Below are positions 27,495-38,021 of a stretch of 64,000 nt of DNA, piece by piece. The DNA is from Thermococcus sp. 4557. GTDB lineage: Archaea; Methanobacteriota_B; Thermococci; Thermococcales; Thermococcaceae. Where the stretch lies: NCBI RefSeq assembly GCF_000221185.1, contig NC_015865.1:1488001-1552000 (forward strand). Direction: 5' to 3'. The number at the start of each line of letters is the position of its first letter. Position 1 is the stretch's first letter. The notes beneath the pieces are model-generated. The model saw only the letters and a list, made by a program, of their open reading frames with translations. It did no database searches and was not told where the DNA came from. A program made the translations under genes and the position numbers.

Positions 27495-29201
27495 ATGGAA
27501 GTCATCAGGCACGAGGGGCCCGGGAGACTGGGTCTCGTCAGGACAGGGGAGCGCTCTTTCACGACCCCGGCACTGGCAGGGGTAGACTTTACGCTCTCCC
27601 CGTTCAACTCCTTCTTCCATCCCGTGGGGCAGGGGGGGTACGACTTCAACCTCGCCCCCGCGATACCCCTCGGCTTCTACACGCCGGACGAGGTTATAGA
27701 GAAGGCCCTCGGAAGGCTCTGGAGCGTGAACTACGAGGGCTTCAACGCCTTCTACCTGCCGGCTTTGAGGAGGACCTCCTACCTGGGTGAGTTCTTCAAG
27801 ATAATCGAGCGCTACAACTTCGATGCCGTCTACCTCGGCAACTCCAAAATCCTCGTGAGGGAGTACCGCTACTTCGTGAGAATCCTGCGCGAGCTGCGCG
27901 AGAGGTTCCCCAACGTCATGATAATCGCCGATCTGGAACCGTTCTTCTATCCGCTCGCCGTTTACCTCGGCGTCGATGCCTTCGACACCCGCTCCCTCAA
28001 GCTCTACGACTTCGAGGGGAAGGGCTTCACCGGGTACAGTCCGTTCCTCTGGAAGGAAGAGGCCAACTCCCTCGACTTCGCCCGTGAGACGATCGCACTG
28101 GTCAGGAAGGCCCTCAAGGAGGGTAAACTCCGCTACCTCGTCGAGAACTTCTTCAACACTCAGTACCACGCGGGAATACTCCGCATAGCGGATTTGGAGC
28201 ATCCCGACTACCTCGAGAAATACACGCCGATCCAGAAGGAGACGGTTTACTTCATCAGCGACGCCTCGATTAGAAGGCCTGAGGTCAGGAGATGGCATTC
28301 GAGGGTTGCCGAGCGCTTCGTTCCTCCGAAGAACACCGAGCTGGTTCTCCTCTTCCCGTGCTCCGCCAAGAAGCCCTACTCCTTCTCGAGGAGCCACACA
28401 CTTTACAGGAGGGCGGTCAAGGAAGCCCTCGGCTCCGGAATAACCAAAGTCCACGAGCTCATCCTCACGTCCCCCTTCGGCGTTGTCCCAAGGGAGTGGG
28501 AGTGGCTTGCCAAGTACGATATAGTGGTCACCGGCCACTGGGGCGAGGAGGAGATTAAACCTGCGGCCGAACTCCTCGCCAAGACTCTCGAGAAGTACCC
28601 GAAGGACGTTCCGGTTATAGCTCACCTCGACGAGGCCTACGTTGAGATAGCTAAACTCGCTTCCGAGCTCTCGGGAAGGGAAATAACCTTCACCCGCGTG
28701 GAGAACGGCACCACGAGCAGGGAGAGCCTGAAGTCCCTCACCGAGACCCTGAGGGAGTTCGAGCTTGAAGCGACCAAGGAGGACAGGACCTACCGCTACT
28801 TCGAGAACATCAGGAAGGTCTTTGACTTCTACTTTGGCGCCGGCGCCGGGGAGGCCGTCCTTCCGGAGAACGGAAAGGTCAAGGGTTCAAAGATGCTCCG
28901 CCTCTTCGTTGATAATCAGCAGACCGGAACCTTCAAGGACGGCGTGATAAGCGTCACGCCCTATGGAATGCAGAGGATATACGATGCCCTCAATGCCTAC
29001 TGTGTGAAGGTGGACTTCGAGCTCCGCGGCGACGTCTTCGCTGTCGGTGTTGACGAGGCCGATCCTGCAATAAGGCCGGACGACATAGTGGGCATAGTGA
29101 GGGACGGAAAGGTAATAGGCGTCGGTAAGGCGGTTTTGGCTGGAGAGGAGATGGTTAGAGTCAGGAAGGGCGTTGCGGTTAAGGTCAGGAAGAGGGCATG
29201 A
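27495..29201 (+). CDS. arcS: archaeosine synthase subunit alpha
   Basis: 568-residue enzyme that modifies preQ0 at position 15 of tRNA on the way to archaeosine; in Thermococcus it attaches lysine to preQ0 and a radical SAM partner (RaSEA) completes G+. The TGT-like catalytic-fold domain occupies about the first 280 residues. The ArcS-specific motif FPCSAKKPYSFSRSH follows, and a PUA RNA-binding domain forms the last 80 residues (GDVFAVGVDEADPAIRPDDIVGIV). The ATG is 9 nt downstream of the coiled-coil gene. The RaSEA gene is not in the window. Confidence 0.95.
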   Translation: MEVIRHEGPGRLGLVRTGERSFTTPALAGVDFTLSPFNSFFHPVGQGGYDFNLAPAIPLGFYTPDEVIEKALGRLWSVNYEGFNAFYLPALRRTSYLGEFFKIIERYNFDAVYLGNSKILVREYRYFVRILRELRERFPNVMIIADLEPFFYPLAVYLGVDAFDTRSLKLYDFEGKGFTGYSPFLWKEEANSLDFARETIALVRKALKEGKLRYLVENFFNTQYHAGILRIADLEHPDYLEKYTPIQKETVYFISDASIRRPEVRRWHSRVAERFVPPKNTELVLLFPCSAKKPYSFSRSHTLYRRAVKEALGSGITKVHELILTSPFGVVPREWEWLAKYDIVVTGHWGEEEIKPAAELLAKTLEKYPKDVPVIAHLDEAYVEIAKLASELSGREITFTRVENGTTSRESLKSLTETLREFELEATKEDRTYRYFENIRKVFDFYFGAGAGEAVLPENGKVKGSKMLRLFVDNQQTGTFKDGVISVTPYGMQRIYDALNAYCVKVDFELRGDVFAVGVDEADPAIRPDDIVGIVRDGKVIGVGKAVLAGEEMVRVRKGVAVKVRKRA

Positions 29202-30247
29202 GTATGAGAAGGGTTCTTGGCCTTCTCCTGGTTCTCCACGTTCTCCTCCTTTCTCTGCCATCGGGTTCCGCGGACTACCTCGGGGCAGAAAGCCTGGACT
29301 TTTACGTCGTTGCCACCTACGGGGACGCGGCGGTGCTGTCGCTTGAATACACCACCTACTCGCCCTCCATGAGCGGCGCACTCGTGCCATCTGCCTGCTG
29401 CGTTCACTACAACTTCTACATAAACTCCAGCGGGGCGTATTTCATGGGTAGGTCCTGGGAGGCCCCGGTGGTTTACCAGTACCGGGGGTTCTACTACCTG
29501 TTCGTGGCCTCGATGGACGGCTCGATTCGGGTTTACCGCATGGGGCGGGACTGCTTTGAGCCGGTCACTGCGGTGAAGTCAAACACCGATGGGGAGCCCA
29601 ACTTCGCCGTTGCGGTCCCGTACCTCGTGGTCCAGACCGGGGAGAACGAACTGGTCGCGGTTAACGTCGCCAGGAACATTACCGCTGGGGTTCTCGACCT
29701 GAGGGAGGCCGAGAGCGGCACCTACTTCAAGGGGGTAACCGTTGTTAAAGGGGAGCACGGCGTTAGACTGACGGGGGATGCCCCCGAAGAGATGCCCAGG
29801 GGAGTGAGCGTTAGCGTGTCCGGGGGGCGGCTTATGGTTCCCGGGGCTGGCCTCGAACTGCCCCTGGATGCTGTGACTGCGCACCTTTGGGCCGCGGAGG
29901 AGGCGGGGCATCTCCAGGCGTACGAACTCGAGAACGCGGTTCTCCTGGTGCCCCCCAGCATCATGCACTACTTTGCCCCGGACTCCAACTCAAGCGGGGA
30001 GCTTCTGGAGTTTGGAAACGAGAGCGTTGGGATCCGGGGGATTTCCAGCCTCTCCGTTCTCTACTGCGACGGTGGGCTGAAAGCCTTTCCCCTGGGACAG
30101 CCCGTAGGAAGCGAGTTCAGGGTAACCTCGGAGAACGTGACCTACACAGAATGCACAGTACCGCGGGTCTACGCTCTTGAATTCTGGGCGGCGGTCGTTC
30201 TCCTGGCTCTAATAGGGTTCACCTGGTTCTTCATGGTCCGGCGGTGA
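29198..30247 (+). CDS. secreted, membrane-anchored hypothetical protein
   Basis: 349-residue protein with a signal peptide (MRRVLGLLLVLHVLLLSLPSGSA), a mainly beta extracellular domain with several possible N-glycosylation sites, and one C-terminal membrane helix (FWAAVVLLALIGFTWFFMV) ending in RR. The topology is a surface protein held by its C-terminus, as in the 31-36 kb cassette. No family is recognised. The ATG overlaps the stop of arcS (ATGA), though a functional link to tRNA modification is hard to see. Confidence 0.78.
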   Translation: MSMRRVLGLLLVLHVLLLSLPSGSADYLGAESLDFYVVATYGDAAVLSLEYTTYSPSMSGALVPSACCVHYNFYINSSGAYFMGRSWEAPVVYQYRGFYYLFVASMDGSIRVYRMGRDCFEPVTAVKSNTDGEPNFAVAVPYLVVQTGENELVAVNVARNITAGVLDLREAESGTYFKGVTVVKGEHGVRLTGDAPEEMPRGVSVSVSGGRLMVPGAGLELPLDAVTAHLWAAEEAGHLQAYELENAVLLVPPSIMHYFAPDSNSSGELLEFGNESVGIRGISSLSVLYCDGGLKAFPLGQPVGSEFRVTSENVTYTECTVPRVYALEFWAAVVLLALIGFTWFFMVRR

Positions 30248-30283: not shown

Positions 30284-30580
30284 ATGCCCAGGCACTTCAA
30301 GAGAGGCGTCAAGAGGGAACACCACTTCCTGAAGGGCCTTGAGAAGCCCCTGGAGATGATAGCGGCTATACCAGGGGTCAAAAAGGTAATCCCCGGAAGG
30401 ATATACGCGAGCGATTCAAGGGGCTTCGAGATAAAGGTCTCGAGGGAAACCAAGACGGGTCTCAAGCTCGTTGCCAAGAGCGATGGGAGCGTTCAGGACG
30501 TTTTTCTTGTGGTTGATAAAGCCGACAGGGAGAGGGTCTGGAGGGAAGTTGAGAGGCTAGTGGGGGAGTGGAGAGGTTAG
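30284..30580 (+). CDS. DUF2103 family protein
   Basis: 98-residue basic protein of the archaeal DUF2103 family (MPRHFKRGVKREHHFLKGLEKPLEMIAAIPGVKKVIPGRIYASDSRGFEIKVSRETKTGLKLVAKSDGSVQDVFLVV). It was annotated as a putative metal-binding protein; the HHF near the start may be a ligand. The strongly basic surface would also suit RNA binding. It ends with a 4-nt overlap on the convergent ABC ATPase gene. A TATA-like CCTAAAAAG sits about 30 nt before the ATG, so the mRNA may be nearly leaderless. Confidence 0.8.
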   Translation: MPRHFKRGVKREHHFLKGLEKPLEMIAAIPGVKKVIPGRIYASDSRGFEIKVSRETKTGLKLVAKSDGSVQDVFLVVDKADRERVWREVERLVGEWRG

Positions 30581-31239
30581 ATCTCCTCGATTTTTGGCAC
30601 CACCTCCTCCGGGGTTCCCGTCATCACAACCTTTCCTGCGGCTATCACGACGATTCTGTCAGCGAACTCAACCAGCGGGCGCCAGATGTGAGAAACCACC
30701 ACCATGTTGGTTCCCTTTTGGGCCTGCTCTCCGATTACCCTCGCCACTTCCTTTATTCCCTCCAGGTCAAGGTTTGCCAGGGGTTCGTCAAGGAGCACCA
30801 GCTCCGGCTTTCCGAGGAACGCCTGGGTGAGGCTGATTCTCTTGAGCATTCCGGCAGAGTACTCCCCCATCTTCCTGTCGAGGTAATTCACCGCAGAGAA
30901 CAGCTCCGCGGCGTTGGTTACTTCTTCCTCCCTCAGACCCTTGACCTCCGCTATGTAACCGAGCCATTCCCTGGCCGTCCTGTGCTTCGGAAGAGCCGGC
31001 GGGTCGAAGGAGACCCCAATCCTTTTCCTCAGCCCATCGTTGCTCCAGGGGTTCTCCCCGAGGACCTTGATTTCCCCTTTGCTTGGCCGGTAGAGGCCGG
31101 CGCAGAGGTTCAGGAAGGTGCTCTTTCCTCCGCCGTTGGGACCGAGTATAAGCGTTAGTCCTCCGTCTATTTCAAGATTCACCGAATCCAGAGCCACGAG
31201 CTTTCCAAACCTCTTCGTGAGGTTTCTCGCGGTTATCAT
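30577..31239 (-). CDS. ABC transporter ATP-binding protein of the surface-protein cassette
   Basis: 220-residue ABC ATPase with Walker A GPNGGGKST, signature YSAGMLKRISL, Walker B LVLLDEP and the H-loop VVSHIW. It is the ABC-2/exporter type (CcmA-like). It is the last gene of a seven-gene minus-strand cassette; its ATG overlaps the stop of the small membrane protein before it. The membrane partner is the permease two genes upstream. The substrate is unknown: export of a secreted peptide or protection from one are both possible. Confidence 0.93.
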   Translation of the reverse strand: MITARNLTKRFGKLVALDSVNLEIDGGLTLILGPNGGGKSTFLNLCAGLYRPSKGEIKVLGENPWSNDGLRKRIGVSFDPPALPKHRTAREWLGYIAEVKGLREEEVTNAAELFSAVNYLDRKMGEYSAGMLKRISLTQAFLGKPELVLLDEPLANLDLEGIKEVARVIGEQAQKGTNMVVVSHIWRPLVEFADRIVVIAAGKVVMTGTPEEVVPKIEEI

Positions 31240-31673
31240 TTCTTCCTCCCCTCCACCAGCAGGATTGCCGCCAGAAGCAGGGCGCTCACTCCGCCCAGGC
31301 CGTACCTGATGTTGAGGACCGTTACGGAGGGGTACCTGTTTATGACCCTGACCGCCATCGTCACTGGTGCCATGGTCTGAACCGAGAAGTAGTAGGGGCC
31401 GGAGTGCTCCAGCATAACCCTTCCCCTGAAGCTCCCGGTCACGTTCCTCTCGAGGACCGCCCTCCCGGTTTCTGGATCGAAGACCCTAACGGCGTATTCG
31501 GTTCCCTCGTCGGCGCTGGAGCTAAGCATGACCATCCCCGAGGAAGGCACGATGATTCCCTGTCCCATAAGAACGACCTCGGAAATCGGCTGGGTCAGCG
31601 CGTTCTTCTCTATCGGAAACACCAGAACGGTCATGATTACCATAGACAGCAATATCGCCTTCAGGAGCCTCAT
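31236..31673 (-). CDS. small two-helix membrane protein of the ABC cassette
   Basis: 145-residue protein with an N-terminal hydrophobic helix (LLKAILLSMVIMTVLVFPI), a beta-rich extracellular domain of about 90 residues, and a C-terminal helix (LGGVSALLLAAILLVEG) ending in RKK. It is coupled by ATGA overlaps both to the permease before it and to the ATPase after it, so it is probably a stable subunit of that transporter, such as an extracellular accessory domain. No named family is recognised. Confidence 0.78.
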   Translation of the reverse strand: MRLLKAILLSMVIMTVLVFPIEKNALTQPISEVVLMGQGIIVPSSGMVMLSSSADEGTEYAVRVFDPETGRAVLERNVTGSFRGRVMLEHSGPYYFSVQTMAPVTMAVRVINRYPSVTVLNIRYGLGGVSALLLAAILLVEGRKK

Positions 31674-32440
31674 GAGACGTCCCTCCACTCGCTGAGTATA
31701 AGGGCCATCCCCAGCATCGCCACCGGAAGGAGAAGCCCCACGTTGAAGGAACCGTCAAGAAACGCCGCTATCCTGTCGGAGGAGTAAAACTGGGTTGTGT
31801 AGGCCTTGAAGAACGCGTCGTCAATCACCGCGGGGGGAAGGCTCCTCAGTTTGAGCACGAGTGGCACGTAGAGGAGGGTGATGCTCCCCAGGAGGGAAGC
31901 GAAGGTGTTGGGTGAAAGCATCGCCACCAGGGCTGAGAGGGACACCACGTAGAGCACCATCATAGCCCAGTACAGGAGGTAGCCTACCAAAAAGCCCTCG
32001 TCGAAGAGTGCCCTTCCGATGAGGCCCGGTATGTCACCGTGAATGTATATGAAAGCCAGGAACGCAGGCAGGATTGAGGCGAGGAAGAGCAGTACCATCG
32101 CGGAGAGCGCCTTAGAGAGTACCACCGAGTGGTTCCTGACGGGCAGGCTGTAGACGCTCTTGGCAACCCTCGTATCCCTGTCGTACCTGAGCATCAGAGA
32201 AACCAGCAACGCTCCAGTGAGGGCAAATATCGTGTACTCCTCGACTCCCAGTCTCGGAAGGGTGAGGCCAATGTTCTTGGCCGATTCGGAGACTATTACA
32301 CTGTCCGGTCCTGCTATCATGAACACCGTATCGTTGCTCGTCAGGCCGGAAAAGAAGGTGATGCCGAGCATGATGAAGCCAAAGATGAATACGATGAGGT
32401 TGTAGGGGTCCTCAAGCTCCCACTTTATCTGTGCCCTCAT
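31670..32440 (-). CDS. ABC-2 type permease of the surface-protein cassette
   Basis: 256-residue protein with six predicted membrane helices and a large loop after the first, the topology of ABC-2 permeases. RYDRDTRVAKSVYSLPVRNHSVVLSKAL is the typical cytoplasmic coupling segment (cf. 'sLPvsr..ilaaK'). Its start is 4 nt downstream of the PEGA gene stop, and its end overlaps the small membrane gene. It should form the transport channel with the ATPase at 30577-31239. Confidence 0.87.
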   Translation of the reverse strand: MRAQIKWELEDPYNLIVFIFGFIMLGITFFSGLTSNDTVFMIAGPDSVIVSESAKNIGLTLPRLGVEEYTIFALTGALLVSLMLRYDRDTRVAKSVYSLPVRNHSVVLSKALSAMVLLFLASILPAFLAFIYIHGDIPGLIGRALFDEGFLVGYLLYWAMMVLYVVSLSALVAMLSPNTFASLLGSITLLYVPLVLKLRSLPPAVIDDAFFKAYTTQFYSSDRIAAFLDGSFNVGLLLPVAMLGMALILSEWRDVS

Positions 32441-32444
32441 TCCC

Positions 32445-34034
32445 TCACCTCCCCAGTCTCAGGGCCAGGTAAACGGCCGCGACAACCCCGGCCAGGATAG
32501 CCAGCTTGACCCACAGGGAGCCGTTGTCCCTTCCTGGTGAGCCGGGAACATCACCTACAGAAGGTGCAGGGAGCGTCTGGGTGTCGTCGGGGGTGTCTTT
32601 CTCGTTGGTCTCGCTCATCTCCCCAGATTTTACGTCGTCCGCTCCGCTCGAGGGAGGTGAGATGACGATTTTCGAGTCCTCAGTTGCGAGCTTCTTCTCC
32701 AGGCTTATCTCGACGGTCTTTGACTCGTTAGGGGCCAGGATTACCTCCAGGCTCTTCGTTAGGTAGCCGGGAGCCTTTGCCGTGATGTTGTAGCGTCCGG
32801 GACTGAGGGTGAGGTTTTTGGCATTGACCTTCTCGCCGTTGATGAGCACCGTCGCGTTGGCCGGATACGTCACGACGTGGAGGGTCGCGCTGGCCGGGGA
32901 GAGCTTCAGGAAGACACTCGCGCTCTCCGCCAGAACCACGGATTCTCTGGCCGAAAGGTTGCCCCTTGAGGCTATGACCGTGTAGTTCCCGGGCGGAAGG
33001 AACAGCGTCGCCGGCGTGGTGGCGAAGGCTCTCAGAACCCCGTCGGTAACCACTATGGAAGCGTTGCCCGGCTCTGAATCTACTTCAAGGGGAACCGCTC
33101 TCACATCCTCCCTCTCCACAGTCAGCGCGGACTTCACCTTTTCCATGTCCACGTTGATGTGATGCATCTCGTGGGGGGCAACCTTCACGACGCTTTCTAC
33201 GAGATAGTGATTCTCCGCTATCCCAACGACATGGGTATCGAGCCTGTGAATTACCGGAATCCGTATCTTTCCGTAGTAACCGGCGGCGGTGGCGTTGTAG
33301 ACGTCGTGGGGGATTGCGGGGACGTAGAGGCCCATAGGAGTATAGAAGACGTACCTATTGTGGCCCCCGTTGATGTAGAACGTTAGACCCTCGGGAACAG
33401 AGGTTATCTCCAGCCGCGCCCAGGGGACGAGGTAAGTGGCGTTCCTGACGCTCTCCTGTCGTTCGCTTCCCCCTGGGTACACTTCGACGTAGAAAATACA
33501 GGGTTTCCCGTCATCGTCTCCAATGTGCATGAAGGTTCCATTGAGGGTTATGTACACCTCGTCCCTTCCCCGCACTGCGAGACCCATTGGGTAGGGATTC
33601 GATACGTTGAGATACCCGGAGTTGCTTCCACATCCCCCTGGAAATGCAAACGGATTAAAGGGCGGGTTGAGCTTTTCCCGGCTGTAATTGGCGCTCTCGT
33701 TGAAGATTGCCCTTACCGACGCGATTCCCTCCCCTGAAACTGCCTCTTTAATCTCCTCGAGGTTCACGCGAATTATTGTAGCCGTCTCGGCCACCACCGA
33801 AACCCGGGCAACCACCGTGACGTTTCCGGTTATCCTGACTGTGTAGTTCCCCGGCTTGAGCACCAGGCCAATGGGAGTGGCGTAAGAGCCTACCTCTCCT
33901 ATCTCGGCCACGTTTCCAGGTGCCTCAACGAACAGATAGCCGGGCCTCTCCATCGTGTTTTCCCCGGTCGAATACGCGGGGGGAACGAGCAGACCGGCCA
34001 TCAAAAACGCCAGAAAAATGAGCTTCCACCTCAC
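32445..34034 (-). CDS. PEGA-domain surface protein of the ABC cassette
   Basis: 529-residue exported protein. A signal peptide (WKLIFLAFLMAGLLVPPAYS) is followed by repeated PEGA/Ig-like beta modules: GLVLKPGNYTVRITG near 60, LFLPPGNYTVIAS near 350 and NLTLSPGRYNITAKAPGY near 420. A Pro/Ser/Asp-rich linker and a C-terminal membrane helix then follow (LWVKLAILAGVVAAVYLALRLGR). The GTG at 34034 overlaps the previous stop (GTGA) and has AGGAGGTGG in front; a longer ATG start at 34058 is less likely. PEGA domains bind surface polymers. This is a C-terminally anchored envelope protein of unknown function. Confidence 0.85.
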   Translation of the reverse strand: MRWKLIFLAFLMAGLLVPPAYSTGENTMERPGYLFVEAPGNVAEIGEVGSYATPIGLVLKPGNYTVRITGNVTVVARVSVVAETATIIRVNLEEIKEAVSGEGIASVRAIFNESANYSREKLNPPFNPFAFPGGCGSNSGYLNVSNPYPMGLAVRGRDEVYITLNGTFMHIGDDDGKPCIFYVEVYPGGSERQESVRNATYLVPWARLEITSVPEGLTFYINGGHNRYVFYTPMGLYVPAIPHDVYNATAAGYYGKIRIPVIHRLDTHVVGIAENHYLVESVVKVAPHEMHHINVDMEKVKSALTVEREDVRAVPLEVDSEPGNASIVVTDGVLRAFATTPATLFLPPGNYTVIASRGNLSARESVVLAESASVFLKLSPASATLHVVTYPANATVLINGEKVNAKNLTLSPGRYNITAKAPGYLTKSLEVILAPNESKTVEISLEKKLATEDSKIVISPPSSGADDVKSGEMSETNEKDTPDDTQTLPAPSVGDVPGSPGRDNGSLWVKLAILAGVVAAVYLALRLGR

Positions 34035-35065
34035 CGCTTCCACCTCCTTTCCGTCCACAAAGCTGTCATAGCGAGAACAACGAGCGAGAGGACGAAGAAG
34101 TACTTAACCGGCGTCGAAGGTGAATGTCCGCTTCCATAGTCTGGGAGCTTGATGTTGGTGTCGTAGAGGTTGAACCCCTGTGCCCACCACTCCCTGTCGT
34201 CCTTTCCTTCCTTGAGGAGTCTCTCAAGTTTCCGGGAGTTTACCCGATCCAGGGGAGATGAGTCAATGACTCCGAGGCTGATGAGTTCCGGGGTTACATC
34301 GCAGAACAGCGTCGTTATTAAAATTCCAGTATCGATATCGTAGACCAGTTGGGTTATGGTTTCCACTCTGCCCCCTGTGCTCAGGTCGTAGACTAGGTAC
34401 TTGCTTCTGCCCTCAACGTAGAGGTAAGGCGGCAGAAAGTCCCTATAGTGAGTGTGGAGGATTTTGTCCTCCATCCACGTGAACGAGACGTTAGTTAGGA
34501 CGATATCATCTCCCAGCAGGCGATATTTTTTCATGAATGCTCTGGAAAGAATTTGTTCCCCTTTTCTTGGAGGGTTGGTGGGGTCTATGAAGAAGGTTGG
34601 GGGACCTATGGGGGTTCCATCTTCTTCATAGTAGGTCATATCGCTCAGATTGAGGTGGAGAACTTTCGAAAGAACCAGACGGGGAAGGGTTTCCTCGGGG
34701 CTCACGCTCACGTTGTTCATTTCAAGCGTAACCCTCACGAGAGCCGTTTCGTTGGTAACGTTGAGGATTTCAAAAGTCAGGTACGAATCTCCCCGCACTA
34801 ACAGGGGCACTATGGAGTTGTTATCCATTTTAACCAGGCCCGAAGTTCCCTCGTAGGCCTCTTTTATCTTAGCGTATGCATCCTTCGGGAGAAGTAGTGG
34901 CCATACTGGGAATACGTTAACTTCGTGCTTACCTGGGTGTTCCGGCATTTTTGTGACGTATTTGATGTGGGTTCCTTCTTTGAGCCAGTACGGGAGCGAG
35001 TGAACGGGGTGTGTGGTTGCTGAGACTGTCAGGAGTGCCAGGATAAGGGCGACGGTTTTTCTCAT
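34031..35065 (-). CDS. anchored secreted protein, LPYW paralogue 2
   Basis: 344-residue protein with a signal peptide ending before LPYWLKEGTHIKYV, a long beta-rich ectodomain, and a C-terminal membrane helix (YFFVLSLVVLAMTALW) with a basic tail. It is a tandem paralogue of the gene just upstream: shared blocks include LPKDAYAKI, LHLNLSDMTYYEEDG, VNNVSFTWM-like LTNVSFTWMEDKILHT, and DREWWAQGFNLYDTNIKLP. ATG 35065 overlaps the stop of that gene (ATGA). No known family. Divergence between the two copies suggests an old duplication or different binding partners. Confidence 0.82.
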   Translation of the reverse strand: MRKTVALILALLTVSATTHPVHSLPYWLKEGTHIKYVTKMPEHPGKHEVNVFPVWPLLLPKDAYAKIKEAYEGTSGLVKMDNNSIVPLLVRGDSYLTFEILNVTNETALVRVTLEMNNVSVSPEETLPRLVLSKVLHLNLSDMTYYEEDGTPIGPPTFFIDPTNPPRKGEQILSRAFMKKYRLLGDDIVLTNVSFTWMEDKILHTHYRDFLPPYLYVEGRSKYLVYDLSTGGRVETITQLVYDIDTGILITTLFCDVTPELISLGVIDSSPLDRVNSRKLERLLKEGKDDREWWAQGFNLYDTNIKLPDYGSGHSPSTPVKYFFVLSLVVLAMTALWTERRWKR

Positions 35066-36072
35066 TCCCTCTTCCACCTCCAGTTGAGAACTGCAGTGAT
35101 GACCAGGAGTGCAAGTGAAGCTGCAAAGAAGTACTTCATTCCTGTGATCGGAGTTTTTGATGACGACGTTTCAGGGAATTTGATGTTAGTATCGTAGAGA
35201 TTGAAGCCAGGTTCCCACCACTCCCTATCAGCTTTGCCCTCATCGAAAAGTTCCTTCATTCTTCTGCCGGCAAGGTAGTCGTAGCTGTCTCCGTTTATAA
35301 TTCCAATTGTAAGCAACTCGGGAGAAAGCCCCATCAGTGGAGCCGTAAGCATGACTCCCGTATCTGAATCATAAACCCTACTTGAAGCAACTGAGACCCA
35401 TATCCCACCTCCCTCTCGCGACCATATCAGAGGTACCTCGTTGCTCTCAACAAGGATATATGGCGGATTAAAATCTCCATAGTAAGTGTGAAGAATCTTT
35501 TTGTCCATCCAGGTGAACGAGACGTTATTTACCCTTAAGTCGGAAGTCCTGAAATTGGACTCTCTGAGGATACTCAAACGAACGAGCAGGGCTCCTTTGT
35601 CTGGTAATTTGGCGGGATCCATGAAGAAAGCGGGCATTCCCAGAGCCCTGCCGTTTTGATAGTACATCATGTCCGTCAGGTTGAGGTGTATTGTTCTCGA
35701 GAGGATTAACCTGTTGAGGGGTTTGTGAAAGTTGACCAGCACTTTGCTCATATCTAAAGTGACCCTGATTGAGGCAGTATCGTCGGAAATATCAACGATT
35801 TCAAAGGTTAAGAAGACGTTCCCCTTCACCACCAGGGTTATGAAGGAGCCATTATCGATTTTCTCCACGGTGGATATGTTCTTATAAGCATCTTTCGGGA
35901 GAAGTCCTGGCCATACTTGAAACGCGTTCCATTCATGTTCGTCGTTATTCTTCGGCATCAGAAGAGCGTATCTAACGTAGGTTCCCTCCTTGAACCAGTA
36001 CGGGAGAGAGTATATGGGAGGGGTTAAAAGAAGTAAAAAAAGGAAGGATATGAAAATGTGTCTGTAGTTCAC
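35062..36072 (-). CDS. anchored secreted protein, LPYW paralogue 1
   Basis: 336-residue protein with a signal peptide (MNYRHIFISFLFLLLLTPPIYS), mature start LPYWFKEGTYVRYALL, a beta-rich ectodomain, and a C-terminal helix (YFFAASLALLVITAVLNWRWKRE). The most conserved segments with paralogue 2 are SFTWMDKKILHTYYGDF and DREWWEPGFNLYDTNIKFP. A GTG start at 36072, preceded by GGGGGG ACA, is used. Codon use is more AT-rich than in the neighbouring core genes, hinting at separate history. It may act as receptor, immunity or adhesion protein; none is shown. Confidence 0.82.
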   Translation of the reverse strand: MNYRHIFISFLFLLLLTPPIYSLPYWFKEGTYVRYALLMPKNNDEHEWNAFQVWPGLLPKDAYKNISTVEKIDNGSFITLVVKGNVFLTFEIVDISDDTASIRVTLDMSKVLVNFHKPLNRLILSRTIHLNLTDMMYYQNGRALGMPAFFMDPAKLPDKGALLVRLSILRESNFRTSDLRVNNVSFTWMDKKILHTYYGDFNPPYILVESNEVPLIWSREGGGIWVSVASSRVYDSDTGVMLTAPLMGLSPELLTIGIINGDSYDYLAGRRMKELFDEGKADREWWEPGFNLYDTNIKFPETSSSKTPITGMKYFFAASLALLVITAVLNWRWKRE

Positions 36073-36083
36073 TGTTTGTCCCC

Positions 36084-36099
36084 CCCAGTTTATGCTGGG
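36084..36099. other. intergenic hairpin in the secreted-protein operon
   Basis: Stem CCCAG/CTGGG with a 6-nt loop between the first gene (36100-36471) and the second gene of the cassette, directly after the first stop codon. On the minus strand it also carries the G-run that serves as ribosome site for the second gene. It could be a processing or partial termination site giving more of the small secreted protein than of the rest. Confidence 0.4.
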
Positions 36100-36471
36100 T
36101 CACCTAAAGTAGTTGGGTATCAGGGCCTTAGCACGTCCTTTCTCCCCATTGTATCTCCTGTAATAAACGTAGGAATAGGCATACATACCATGTGGATCCG
36201 TTATAATGCCCTTGTCTAGTATCTTAACTCCTTTACCCTCAGTAGTGCCCCAGACTGTGTCAGTGAGAACCTTCTGGAATTTTCCGTTGCAGACTAAGAC
36301 CTGTCCGTGTATGCCGGCCCAGACCCACTCGTCCTGACTCCACTCTCTAACGTCGCTGTTGTGGTCCCAGGGCGTCCAGCAGCTTTGGGTGGAAACGCTA
36401 CCTGCCGCGTTCACAAGACCTACAAACAACCCCCCAACTAGGAGGACTCCAAGTAATATCCTATGCTTCAT
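36100..36471 (-). CDS. small secreted protein heading the ABC cassette
   Basis: 123-residue protein with a clean Sec signal peptide (MKHRILLGVLLVGGLFVGLVNA) and a mature part of about 100 residues. It has two cysteines (SCW; LVCNG) that could form a disulfide, five Trp, and a Tyr-rich end YAYSYVYYRRYNGEKGRAKA. It has no membrane anchor, so it is released or held by partners. No family is recognised with confidence; Sec-type secretion, size and an adjacent ABC system recall lactococcin-972-like bacteriocins. First gene of the operon, with its own AT-rich promoter (ACTTATAAGA near 36514-36523) and GAGGGGTGCTACC ribosome site. Confidence 0.78.
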   Translation of the reverse strand: MKHRILLGVLLVGGLFVGLVNAAGSVSTQSCWTPWDHNSDVREWSQDEWVWAGIHGQVLVCNGKFQKVLTDTVWGTTEGKGVKILDKGIITDPHGMYAYSYVYYRRYNGEKGRAKALIPNYFR

Positions 36472-36498
36472 GGTAGCACCCCTCAGGAGGCATTAATA

Positions 36499-36588
36499 AT
36501 AACATGTCAGGTCTTATAAGTCTTACGTTTTGAAATTGTGCTTAATACACTTGGTTCAGCGAATTTAAAAACAGCCAATACATGTTAT
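36499..36588. promoter_or_regulatory. AT-rich promoter region with inverted ATAACATGT elements
   Basis: ATAACATGT at 36499-36507 and its reverse complement ACATGTTAT at 36580-36588, each flanked by TAATAATA-type bases, bracket the TATA box of the secreted-protein cassette. One copy overlaps the predicted transcription start. Two copies of the same 9-mer in inverted orientation suggest a regulator bridging the promoter. The gap from 36472 to 36686 is the most AT-rich in the window; nothing else is seen in it. Confidence 0.4.
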
Positions 36589-36686
36589 ATAATAATAAAT
36601 CCAGAATTAAGTAACAACGCGTCTGATTTCCAAAAAGTCCTGGATTAAACCGTCAATTAACTCAAAATGTTAAAGTGGGAGTGACT

Positions 36687-37322
36687 CTAAATCTCCCCCT
36701 TCCCCTCGAAAAACGCCTCAAGCTCCTCGTCGCTTATCTCGTCGTCGGCTTCCGTGTAGCCGAGTTCCCTCTTCTGGAGTTCTATCAGTCCTGGTGTGAG
36801 GAGAAGCCTCCCATCCAGCTTCGGCACGGCGTAGTGGAGGGTTATCTCGCTGAACTCGTCCAGCTTTATCGTGGGGTTCAGCTCGTACTCAATCTCGTCA
36901 AGCCTCTTCCCCTCCGCGATGAGCTTCGCCACTATCGCCGAGCCGTCTATGGAGAACTGCACGCTCCCTATGTGCCTGGCCTTCGCCCCTTCGATCTTCT
37001 CGGTTATGAACTTCTTGGTCTTCCCTGTGAACTCGAAGTCGCCGAGGATTCCGCCGACGACTATTATGCTGTCCTCCTCGATGTCCTCGGGCTTCAGCTC
37101 CTCTTCCGCGAAGGGGTCGAGGATTATCAGCTTTGAGCGGTCGAAGGGGAACTCCGTAACGCTCTGGGCCAAAACGCTCCCCAGCTTCGCCAGCTCTTCC
37201 CTCTCGTGCGGCTCCACGTTGGTGAATATCAGCTTTTCTCCCCACCACTCGCTCGCGTGCCTGTACTCGAGCAGAACCCAGTCGCGCAGTTCCTCCAGGT
37301 GTTCTATGAGCAGGTACGGCAT
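36687..37322 (-). CDS. SFM1-like SPOUT methyltransferase
   Basis: 211-residue protein matching the archaeal COG2428/PF04252 family, related to yeast SFM1, which methylates an arginine of ribosomal protein S3; it was earlier predicted to be an RNA methyltransferase. The SPOUT core is visible: SIIVVGGILGDFEFTGKTKKFITE and the trefoil-knot-like segment SIDGSAIVAKLIAEGKRL. ATG 37322, preceded by GGTGATGCTC, is the start; the frame is open far upstream, but that part is antisense to the next gene. A TATA-like CTTTTAAGG is about 40 nt upstream. Confidence 0.82.
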   Translation of the reverse strand: MPYLLIEHLEELRDWVLLEYRHASEWWGEKLIFTNVEPHEREELAKLGSVLAQSVTEFPFDRSKLIILDPFAEEELKPEDIEEDSIIVVGGILGDFEFTGKTKKFITEKIEGAKARHIGSVQFSIDGSAIVAKLIAEGKRLDEIEYELNPTIKLDEFSEITLHYAVPKLDGRLLLTPGLIELQKRELGYTEADDEISDEELEAFFEGKGEI

Positions 37323-37421
37323 GAGCATCACCGGGTCGGCTTTGGACTGAGACCTTAAAAGCCTGCCGACTTCCCGGAACTGCCCAGTTAGAGTTTTAAC
37401 GGAAAAGGCCAACCTTGGAGT

Positions 37422-38021
37422 ATGGGCTTCAGGGAGAAGTACGCGAGGCTTGGAGAGCGCTACAACGACCTGGAAAAGCCGCTGGACAGGTTTTTCTGTC
37501 CGCTCAGGGAAAAGGCCGCAGAGTTCGTCCGGGGAAAAGTCCTCGAGGTCGGTGTGGGCGTCGGGAAGATGCTCCCCTACTACCCGCCCAGCGTTGAGCT
37601 GCACGCCGTTGATGCGGTCCCAGAGATGGTCGAGATAGCCAGAAGGAGGGCCGATGAACTGGGTCTAAACGTCCGCTTTTACGTCATGGACGCAGAGGAC
37701 CTGGAGTTTCCGGACGGGAGCTTCGACACCGTGGTCTCGGCCTTCGTCTTCTGCACCGTTCCCAACCCGGAGAGGGCGATGGAGGAAATTCACCGCGTCC
37801 TCAAGCCCGGTGGAATGCTGGTCCTTCTGGAGCACACGAGGAGCGACTGCCGGCTTTTGAACTGGCTTTTCCTGAAGCCCCTCGACGTTCTCCTCGGCCT
37901 TTTGCTGGATGACAACACGCTGAGGGAGACGCACCTTTTGGCCAGAAAGTACTTCGAAATCGAGCACGAGGAGAGCCACTACCGTGGAATAGTGCGGTTG
38001 ATTGTGGGCAGGAAGGTGTAA
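37422..38021 (+). CDS. class I SAM-dependent methyltransferase (UbiE/phospholipid-methyltransferase type)
   Basis: 199-residue methyltransferase: motif I VLEVGVGVGKM, the acidic ribose-binding residue in HAVDAVPEM, motif DAEDLEFPDGSFDTVVSAFVFCTV, and HRVLKPGGMLVLLEH. These features and the C-terminal hydrophobic region (LFLKPLDVLLGLLL) resemble methyltransferases acting on lipids or quinone-like molecules. The true substrate is unknown. CTTGGAG precedes the ATG. Divergent from the SFM1-like gene, each with its own TATA element. Confidence 0.85.
   Translation: MGFREKYARLGERYNDLEKPLDRFFCPLREKAAEFVRGKVLEVGVGVGKMLPYYPPSVELHAVDAVPEMVEIARRRADELGLNVRFYVMDAEDLEFPDGSFDTVVSAFVFCTVPNPERAMEEIHRVLKPGGMLVLLEHTRSDCRLLNWLFLKPLDVLLGLLLDDNTLRETHLLARKYFEIEHEESHYRGIVRLIVGRKV

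Follow-up and report, generated by a model that had tools for sequence, protein, structure and literature searches.

Seven genes on the minus strand form a cassette within the window (the whole stretch of DNA analysed, 64,000 nucleotides), which spans bases 1,488,001-1,552,000 of a genome assembled as a single contig of 2.01 Mb. All seven, here called SM, SP1, SP2, PG, PM, TH and AT, lie where the original prediction had placed them (Table 1). Four junctions are 4-nt overlaps, ATGA at SP1/SP2, PM/TH and TH/AT and GTGA at SP2/PG. The overlaps had been predicted to join five of the genes; they in fact link six, as two triplets, SP1/SP2/PG and PM/TH/AT. A gap of 4 nt separates PG from PM, and 27 nt separate SM from SP1.

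Table 1. Genes and features of the cassette and its borders (positions in the window)
Feature	Description	Positions	Strand	Basis or remark
Upstream region	Promoter	36472-36690	-	TATA-like CTTATAAG and G-rich ribosome site before the SM start; promoter called by eye
SM	123-aa secreted protein, proposed toxin (archaeocin)	36100-36471	-	Alignment, AF2, mosaic analysis
SP1	Proposed cognate immunity protein of the present SM	35062-36072	-	Signal peptide, beta-rich ectodomain, C-terminal TM helix
SP2	SP1 paralogue, proposed orphan immunity protein left from a previous SM	34031-35065	-	ORF 34031-35077, ATG overlap start at 35065
PG	PEGA-domain surface protein, C-terminal TM	32445-34034	-	ORF 32445-34058, GTG overlap start at 34034
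PM	ABC-2-type permease	31670-32440	-	Sub-threshold ABC-2 Pfam matches
TH	Small protein with two helices and an extracytoplasmic domain; gene lies between PM and AT	31236-31673	-	ORF 31236-31688, ATG overlap start at 31673
AT	ABC ATPase	30577-31239	-	Pfam ABC_tran
98-aa gene	Flanking core gene, one edge of the insertion	30284-30580	+	Present in 84/94 family genomes
305-aa gene	Flanking core gene (ORF of at most 305 aa) at the opposite edge of the insertion	36687-37604	-	Adjoins the 98-aa gene at empty sites

The region upstream of SM is, as predicted, the most AT-rich stretch of the window (75%, 73% and 69% at the 60-, 100- and 200-bp scales). Clear Pfam matches within the cassette are confined to PEGA in PG and ABC_tran in AT, which bears out the calls of a PEGA protein and an ATPase; PM falls below threshold for ABC-2, and SM, SP1, SP2 and TH have no significant Pfam match. 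Between SM and SP1, just 5' of the SP1 ribosome site, lies a short inverted repeat, CCCAG-CATAAA-CTGGG (36073-36099, minus strand). This element could set the SM:SP ratio, and it may not be conserved, as SM-SP spacing varies at other loci.

The flanking genes, described at the outset as ordinary core genes, are immediate neighbours in the genomes G013 (L231), G037 (L215) and G040 (L227), with few bases between the matched stretches, indicating that the cassette is additional DNA where two core genes meet. Modules related to it occupy several other genomic sites. Beside the 98-aa gene is a gene for a 349-aa membrane-anchored protein (29198-30247, plus strand) whose identity between genomes ranges from 25% to 93%, whereas the 98-aa gene is mostly 84-94% identical; the 349-aa protein has no Pfam match and is possibly another variable surface protein.

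A total of 94 Thermococcaceae genomes were searched with PM, SM and SP1, and the surrounding DNA was labelled with iterated profiles. The unit SP-PM-TH-AT, in fixed order and with one to five copies of SP, recurs at about 100 loci; the association of PM with SP is partly by construction, as loci were collected on matches to PM, SM or SP, whereas that of TH, AT and the upstream small gene, and the gene order itself, was not built in by the selection. The seven-gene cassette is thus one instance of an arrangement that recurs far beyond chance. A profile search found SP in 61 genomes, all Thermococcaceae, and in 0 of 21 other genomes of the phylum, where the SP-PM-TH-AT unit was not found either; a search of plasmids for SP found none. 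SM or a remnant of it is present in 26 of the 94 family genomes, nearly always at a module, and was not found outside the family. The pattern that had been expected of a true system, conserved co-occurrence with patchy distribution, is therefore what we see, including for SM and the rest of the cassette. Homologues scattered singly, which would have spoken against a system, are rare: one SP (L239) and one SM remnant (L206) occur without a module. An SM remnant with two in-frame stops is carried by G007 (L206, G007:C1:978000-993000) and G011, both from a different genus of the family (g3); in G007 no module lies beside it.

The first gene of the module can be exchanged. Usually the gene 5' of the first SP encodes a secreted protein of about 105-150 aa, which falls into the families c1 (the window type, SM), c2 (that of class-2 modules), c3, c4, c5 and c6. 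Profile comparison, in which c4, c5 and c6 were represented by two sequences each, detected no similarity among c1, c2, c3, c4/5 and c6 and linked only c4 with c5; common ancestry of the small secreted families is otherwise undetectable by this means, and at least five mutually unrelated families precede the same SP/ABC core. By rule-based counting, in which a frameshift, stop or truncation defines a broken gene, the small gene is intact at about 58 of 100 loci, broken at about 15 and undetectable at about 27; the c6 loci L189 and L197 were taken as intact, and the broken call at L208 is uncertain. An SM-type gene is thus broken or not found at about 42 of 100 loci, and SP-PM-TH-AT is usually retained there, with SP, PM, TH and AT mostly intact and some breakage among these too. 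Loci without a small gene often lie beside housekeeping genes, and such SP-only modules could have another function.

Several loci illustrate the range of layouts. The window genome carries two further modules, L115 (G000:C1:137000-150000), of the form c3-SP-PM-TH-AT with a class-3 small secreted protein, and L116 (G000:C1:176000-192000), of the form SP-PM-TH-AT-PG, from which the small gene is gone. Four loci (L114, L190, L191 and L199) are double modules, SP-PM-TH-SP-PM-TH, with a single ATPase, and L123 (G042:C4:37000-56900) is an expanded array, SM-SP-PG-SP-PG-SP-PG-SP-SP-PG-PM-TH-AT. The duplication of SP-PG pairs as units in this array suggests that PG can travel with SP.

An alignment of 24 SM proteins shows a signal peptide, a conserved N-terminal half, a C-terminal half that is variable from about residue 80, and two invariant cysteines, C31 and C61. 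AF2 run on the 24 SMs predicts a beta protein whose six strands follow the signal peptide, with pLDDT above 90 over most of the mature part. Searches of Pfam, NCBIfam, PDB sequences and PDB folds matched SM to no toxin or bacteriocin that is known, and neither SM nor SP has a sequence relative in the PDB. Among the matches listed by the PDB fold search (the best 50 of 1190 weak matches) none falls below 1e-3. The best of them is to Listeria Zea/Lmo2686 (4K15), a secreted RNA-binding protein (PMC6907008); at E 7e-3 and TM of about 0.4 the match is weak and probably coincidental, and we draw no evidence from it. A fold search of a viral library found nothing. A phage link through PHROG 11104, a group of unknown function, was likewise set aside, as five of the 24 SMs match it weakly (E 4e-4) and no hit was obtained in phage records. 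Matches of the cassette to the anti-phage defence systems in PADLOC-DB are limited to AT, through generic ATPase similarity.

The N-terminal half of SM follows the operon, whereas the C-terminal half follows just the adjacent SP. Across 12 adjacent SM-SP pairs at window-type (type-A) loci, mean identities are 83% for the N-terminal half of SM (SM-N), 51% for its C-terminal half (SM-C), 47% for SP, 87% for PM and 86% for AT. The Mantel correlation between SM-C and SP is 0.91 (p=0.0005, n=12) and is still 0.91 when controlling for PM or AT, whereas SM-C with PM gives 0.05, SM-N with SP 0.04 and SM-N with PM 0.55. In 20-residue windows moved from residue 60 to 100 of SM, identity drops from about 0.8 to 0.4 while the correlation with SP climbs from around 0 to 0.87, placing the switch point of this mosaic at residues ~75-85. 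The SP ectodomain covaries with SM-C throughout (0.76-0.91) and the TM tail less so (0.63), and the covariation stops at the next genes (PG 0.12, TH 0.09). The unrelated c2 family repeats the pattern in 15 pairs, with a correlation of 0.88 between C-part and SP when controlling for PM and of -0.04 between C-part and PM; here the N-part correlates too (0.70), unlike in the window type. Class 3 is less diverged and so less informative. Tandem arrays keep their pairs matched, as in G014 (SM-SP-SM-SP-SP-SM-SP) and in the two units of G080. Because SM-C and SP are adjacent in the DNA, block recombination alone would suffice to make them covary without binding. Three points nevertheless favour a functional block: a secreted family with no relation to SM shows it again, its pairs remain matched in tandem arrays, and it has diverged much more than the other parts of the operon. 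We regard cognate SM-SP pairing as well supported.

The two surface proteins of the window appear to capture a replacement. SP1 and SP2 are about 46% identical, as their description as paralogues implied; the AF2 model of SP1 (pLDDT 93.7) has a beta-rich ectodomain and a C-terminal helix, and a fold search with it returned no convincing relative. The closest relative is G061, a fragmented metagenome-assembled genome in which the module is split over two contigs; its DNA is 96% identical to that of the window over PM-TH-AT and 100% over SM codons 51-80. Past codon 80, identity falls to about 0.5-0.8 over the remainder of SM, window SP1 has no counterpart beside SM in G061, and similarity resumes inside SP2. 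The G061 SP that lies directly beside SM, on the SM contig, is 68% identical to window SP2, compared with 45% to SP1. The simplest reading is that the window lineage gained a new SM-C together with SP1 and that the older partner was left behind as SP2. Displaced immunity genes are known in contact-dependent inhibition loci, and the displacement logic of SP2 here would be the same.

A lantibiotic-protection ATPase model is among the best NCBIfam scores of AT but lies far below its cut-off (TIGR03740, the LanFEG ATPase: 125.8 bits against 309.75). PM-AT is less likely to be the exporter of SM, given that SM carries a Sec-type signal peptide of its own and that loci with no detectable small gene still keep the transporter; by analogy, PM-TH-AT would instead be a LanFEG-like protective transporter. 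PG varies in position, lying before PM (as in the window type), after AT or nowhere, and it is missing from class-2 and class-3 modules. It has no clear place in a toxin/immunity model, which we count against that model.

Taking these observations together, we consider it reasonably probable that the module is a polymorphic secreted toxin/immunity system of 'archaeocin' type, in which immunity is cognate and borne on the surface and an ABC transporter resembling LanFEG adds protection. We infer that SM is toxic, that SP binds it, that SM contains a disulfide and that the transporter has a protective task. SM would be exported through Sec, fold into a small disulfide-linked beta protein and be released, its conserved N-half doing the shared work and its variable C-half conferring specificity. 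SP1, anchored outside the membrane by one helix, would bind the matching SM and protect the producer, while PM-TH-AT would clear membrane-bound SM or power SP-based protection, as LanFEG does beside LanI; PG would be an accessory surface protein. Specificity would change by exchange of the SM C-half and SP as a block, with the conserved SM N-half as one recombination arm, and the former SP would remain downstream as an orphan immunity gene, as SP2 may do in the window. Of the roles first suggested for the cassette (secretion, immunity or cell-surface assembly), immunity has gained backing from SM-C/SP covariation, orphan SPs and SM decay; secretion and assembly have gained none of this kind.

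A ligand and its receptor, or surface variation driven by viruses, would leave the same pattern as a toxin and its immunity protein. We weighed three other explanations. First, SM may act as a ligand that is released and SP as the matching receptor, or as a partner in kin discrimination, without any killing; the transporter would then recycle or sense the complex. Polymorphic matched pairs and the anchoring of SP at the surface would suit such self-recognition or communication, and another hypervariable surface module, VARTIG, is already described in Thermococcales (PMC8416519). We nonetheless think it unlikely: SP has few residues inside the cell, so that signalling would have to pass via the transporter, and the many SPs kept without SM, along with the stacking of several different SPs with one SM, fit protection better. 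Second, SM and SP may form one surface complex diversified by viruses or predators, with the transporter and PG assisting assembly. Every product except AT is extracytoplasmic or in the membrane, a PEGA protein is present, and SM and SP covary; however, SM carries a signal peptide but lacks an anchor, it is dispensable where SP and the transporter persist, and unrelated small proteins use the same SP/ABC core, leaving surface assembly with quite a low probability. Third, SM-C and SP could be a mere recombination block of highly divergent alleles, linked by chance or transfer without functional interaction, but despite their adjacency and the sharp block edges this is very improbable, given that the same block lies beside SP in two unrelated secreted families with the same contrast to PM, that SM-C and SP have diverged to identities of about 35-50% where the rest of the operon is 80-90% alike, and that pairs stay matched in duplicated arrays.

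The toxin/immunity reading invites comparison with several known systems. Lantibiotic immunity (LanI with LanFEG) and bacteriocin loci similarly combine, in one operon, genes for a small product that is secreted, for a surface-anchored protein specific to that product and for a small transporter of ABC-2 type. The module differs from lantibiotic systems in lacking modification enzymes, in an all-beta SM of about 100 aa that keeps a Sec-type signal peptide, in an SP that is not LanI-like by any profile match, in an AT far below the family cut-off and in its restriction to Thermococcaceae among the genomes searched. In the lactococcin 972 family, the gene of a small beta protein exported through Sec precedes genes for membrane and ABC-type immunity proteins, a layout from which we first guessed membership. 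SP and TH have no counterpart there, however, none of the 24 SMs matches PF09683 even at E<=10, and the best 50 of 1190 weak SM fold matches do not include the solved structure of Lcn972. With contact-dependent inhibition (CDI) and other polymorphic toxins (CdiA-CT/CdiI), the module shares a conserved N-part, a variable C-part, a covarying, apparently protective gene directly 3', block exchange and displaced orphan immunity. Unlike those systems, it has no delivery apparatus for SM: the analysis found no large delivery protein or known toxin domain, and the 123-aa SM matches no toxin model. Its C-parts are variants, homologous to each other, of a single small beta domain rather than unrelated toxin domains, and the protective protein would act outside the cell, together with an ABC transporter.

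VARTIG, the hypervariable Ig-domain module of Thermococcales, resembles the present module in being restricted to this order, variable, made of membrane or secreted products and assigned a proposed role in conflict or self/non-self recognition. Its first gene encodes a large Ig protein of >500 aa (Makarova et al. 2021, PMC8416519), and the text of that paper makes no mention of an ABC transporter, a permease or a PEGA protein. In the present module a protein of about 120 aa comes first, ahead of the core SP-PM-TH-AT; with 123 aa and no Ig-type Pfam match, as opposed to the large Ig-domain protein (arCOG07710), the 5' gene of the cassette does not identify it as VARTIG. Full-text searches of the open-access literature found no description of the module and no archaeocin from Thermococcales; within that scope, the suggestion that the system is not yet described stands and no existing characterised assignment was found, while a partial earlier mention may exist outside it. 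On sequence grounds, the module appears to work like a polymorphic toxin/immunity or bacteriocin system, yet probably belongs to none of those tested.

A broader possibility, to which we give even odds, is that several unrelated variable secreted families share one protective core, a matched SP plus a three-part ABC transporter, and that swaps of half a gene with its partner leave arrays of displaced immunity genes, the record of a family-wide archaeal arms race. If this is true, its toxin/immunity logic, in which a small released beta protein meets extracellular cognate immunity with an ABC back-up, is one not described in archaea. Hardly any molecular weapons are known between archaea; the module provides a concrete candidate, in which pairs are matched, immunity genes occur as orphans and some versions are naturally broken. 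The family that carries it includes genetically tractable Thermococcus species, making a direct test feasible. Should the pairs serve recognition rather than killing, they would still offer a ready collection of proteins in which to map what determines specificity; if SM inhibits strains without the matching SP, antagonism and kin discrimination in hyperthermophilic archaea would be opened to experiment.
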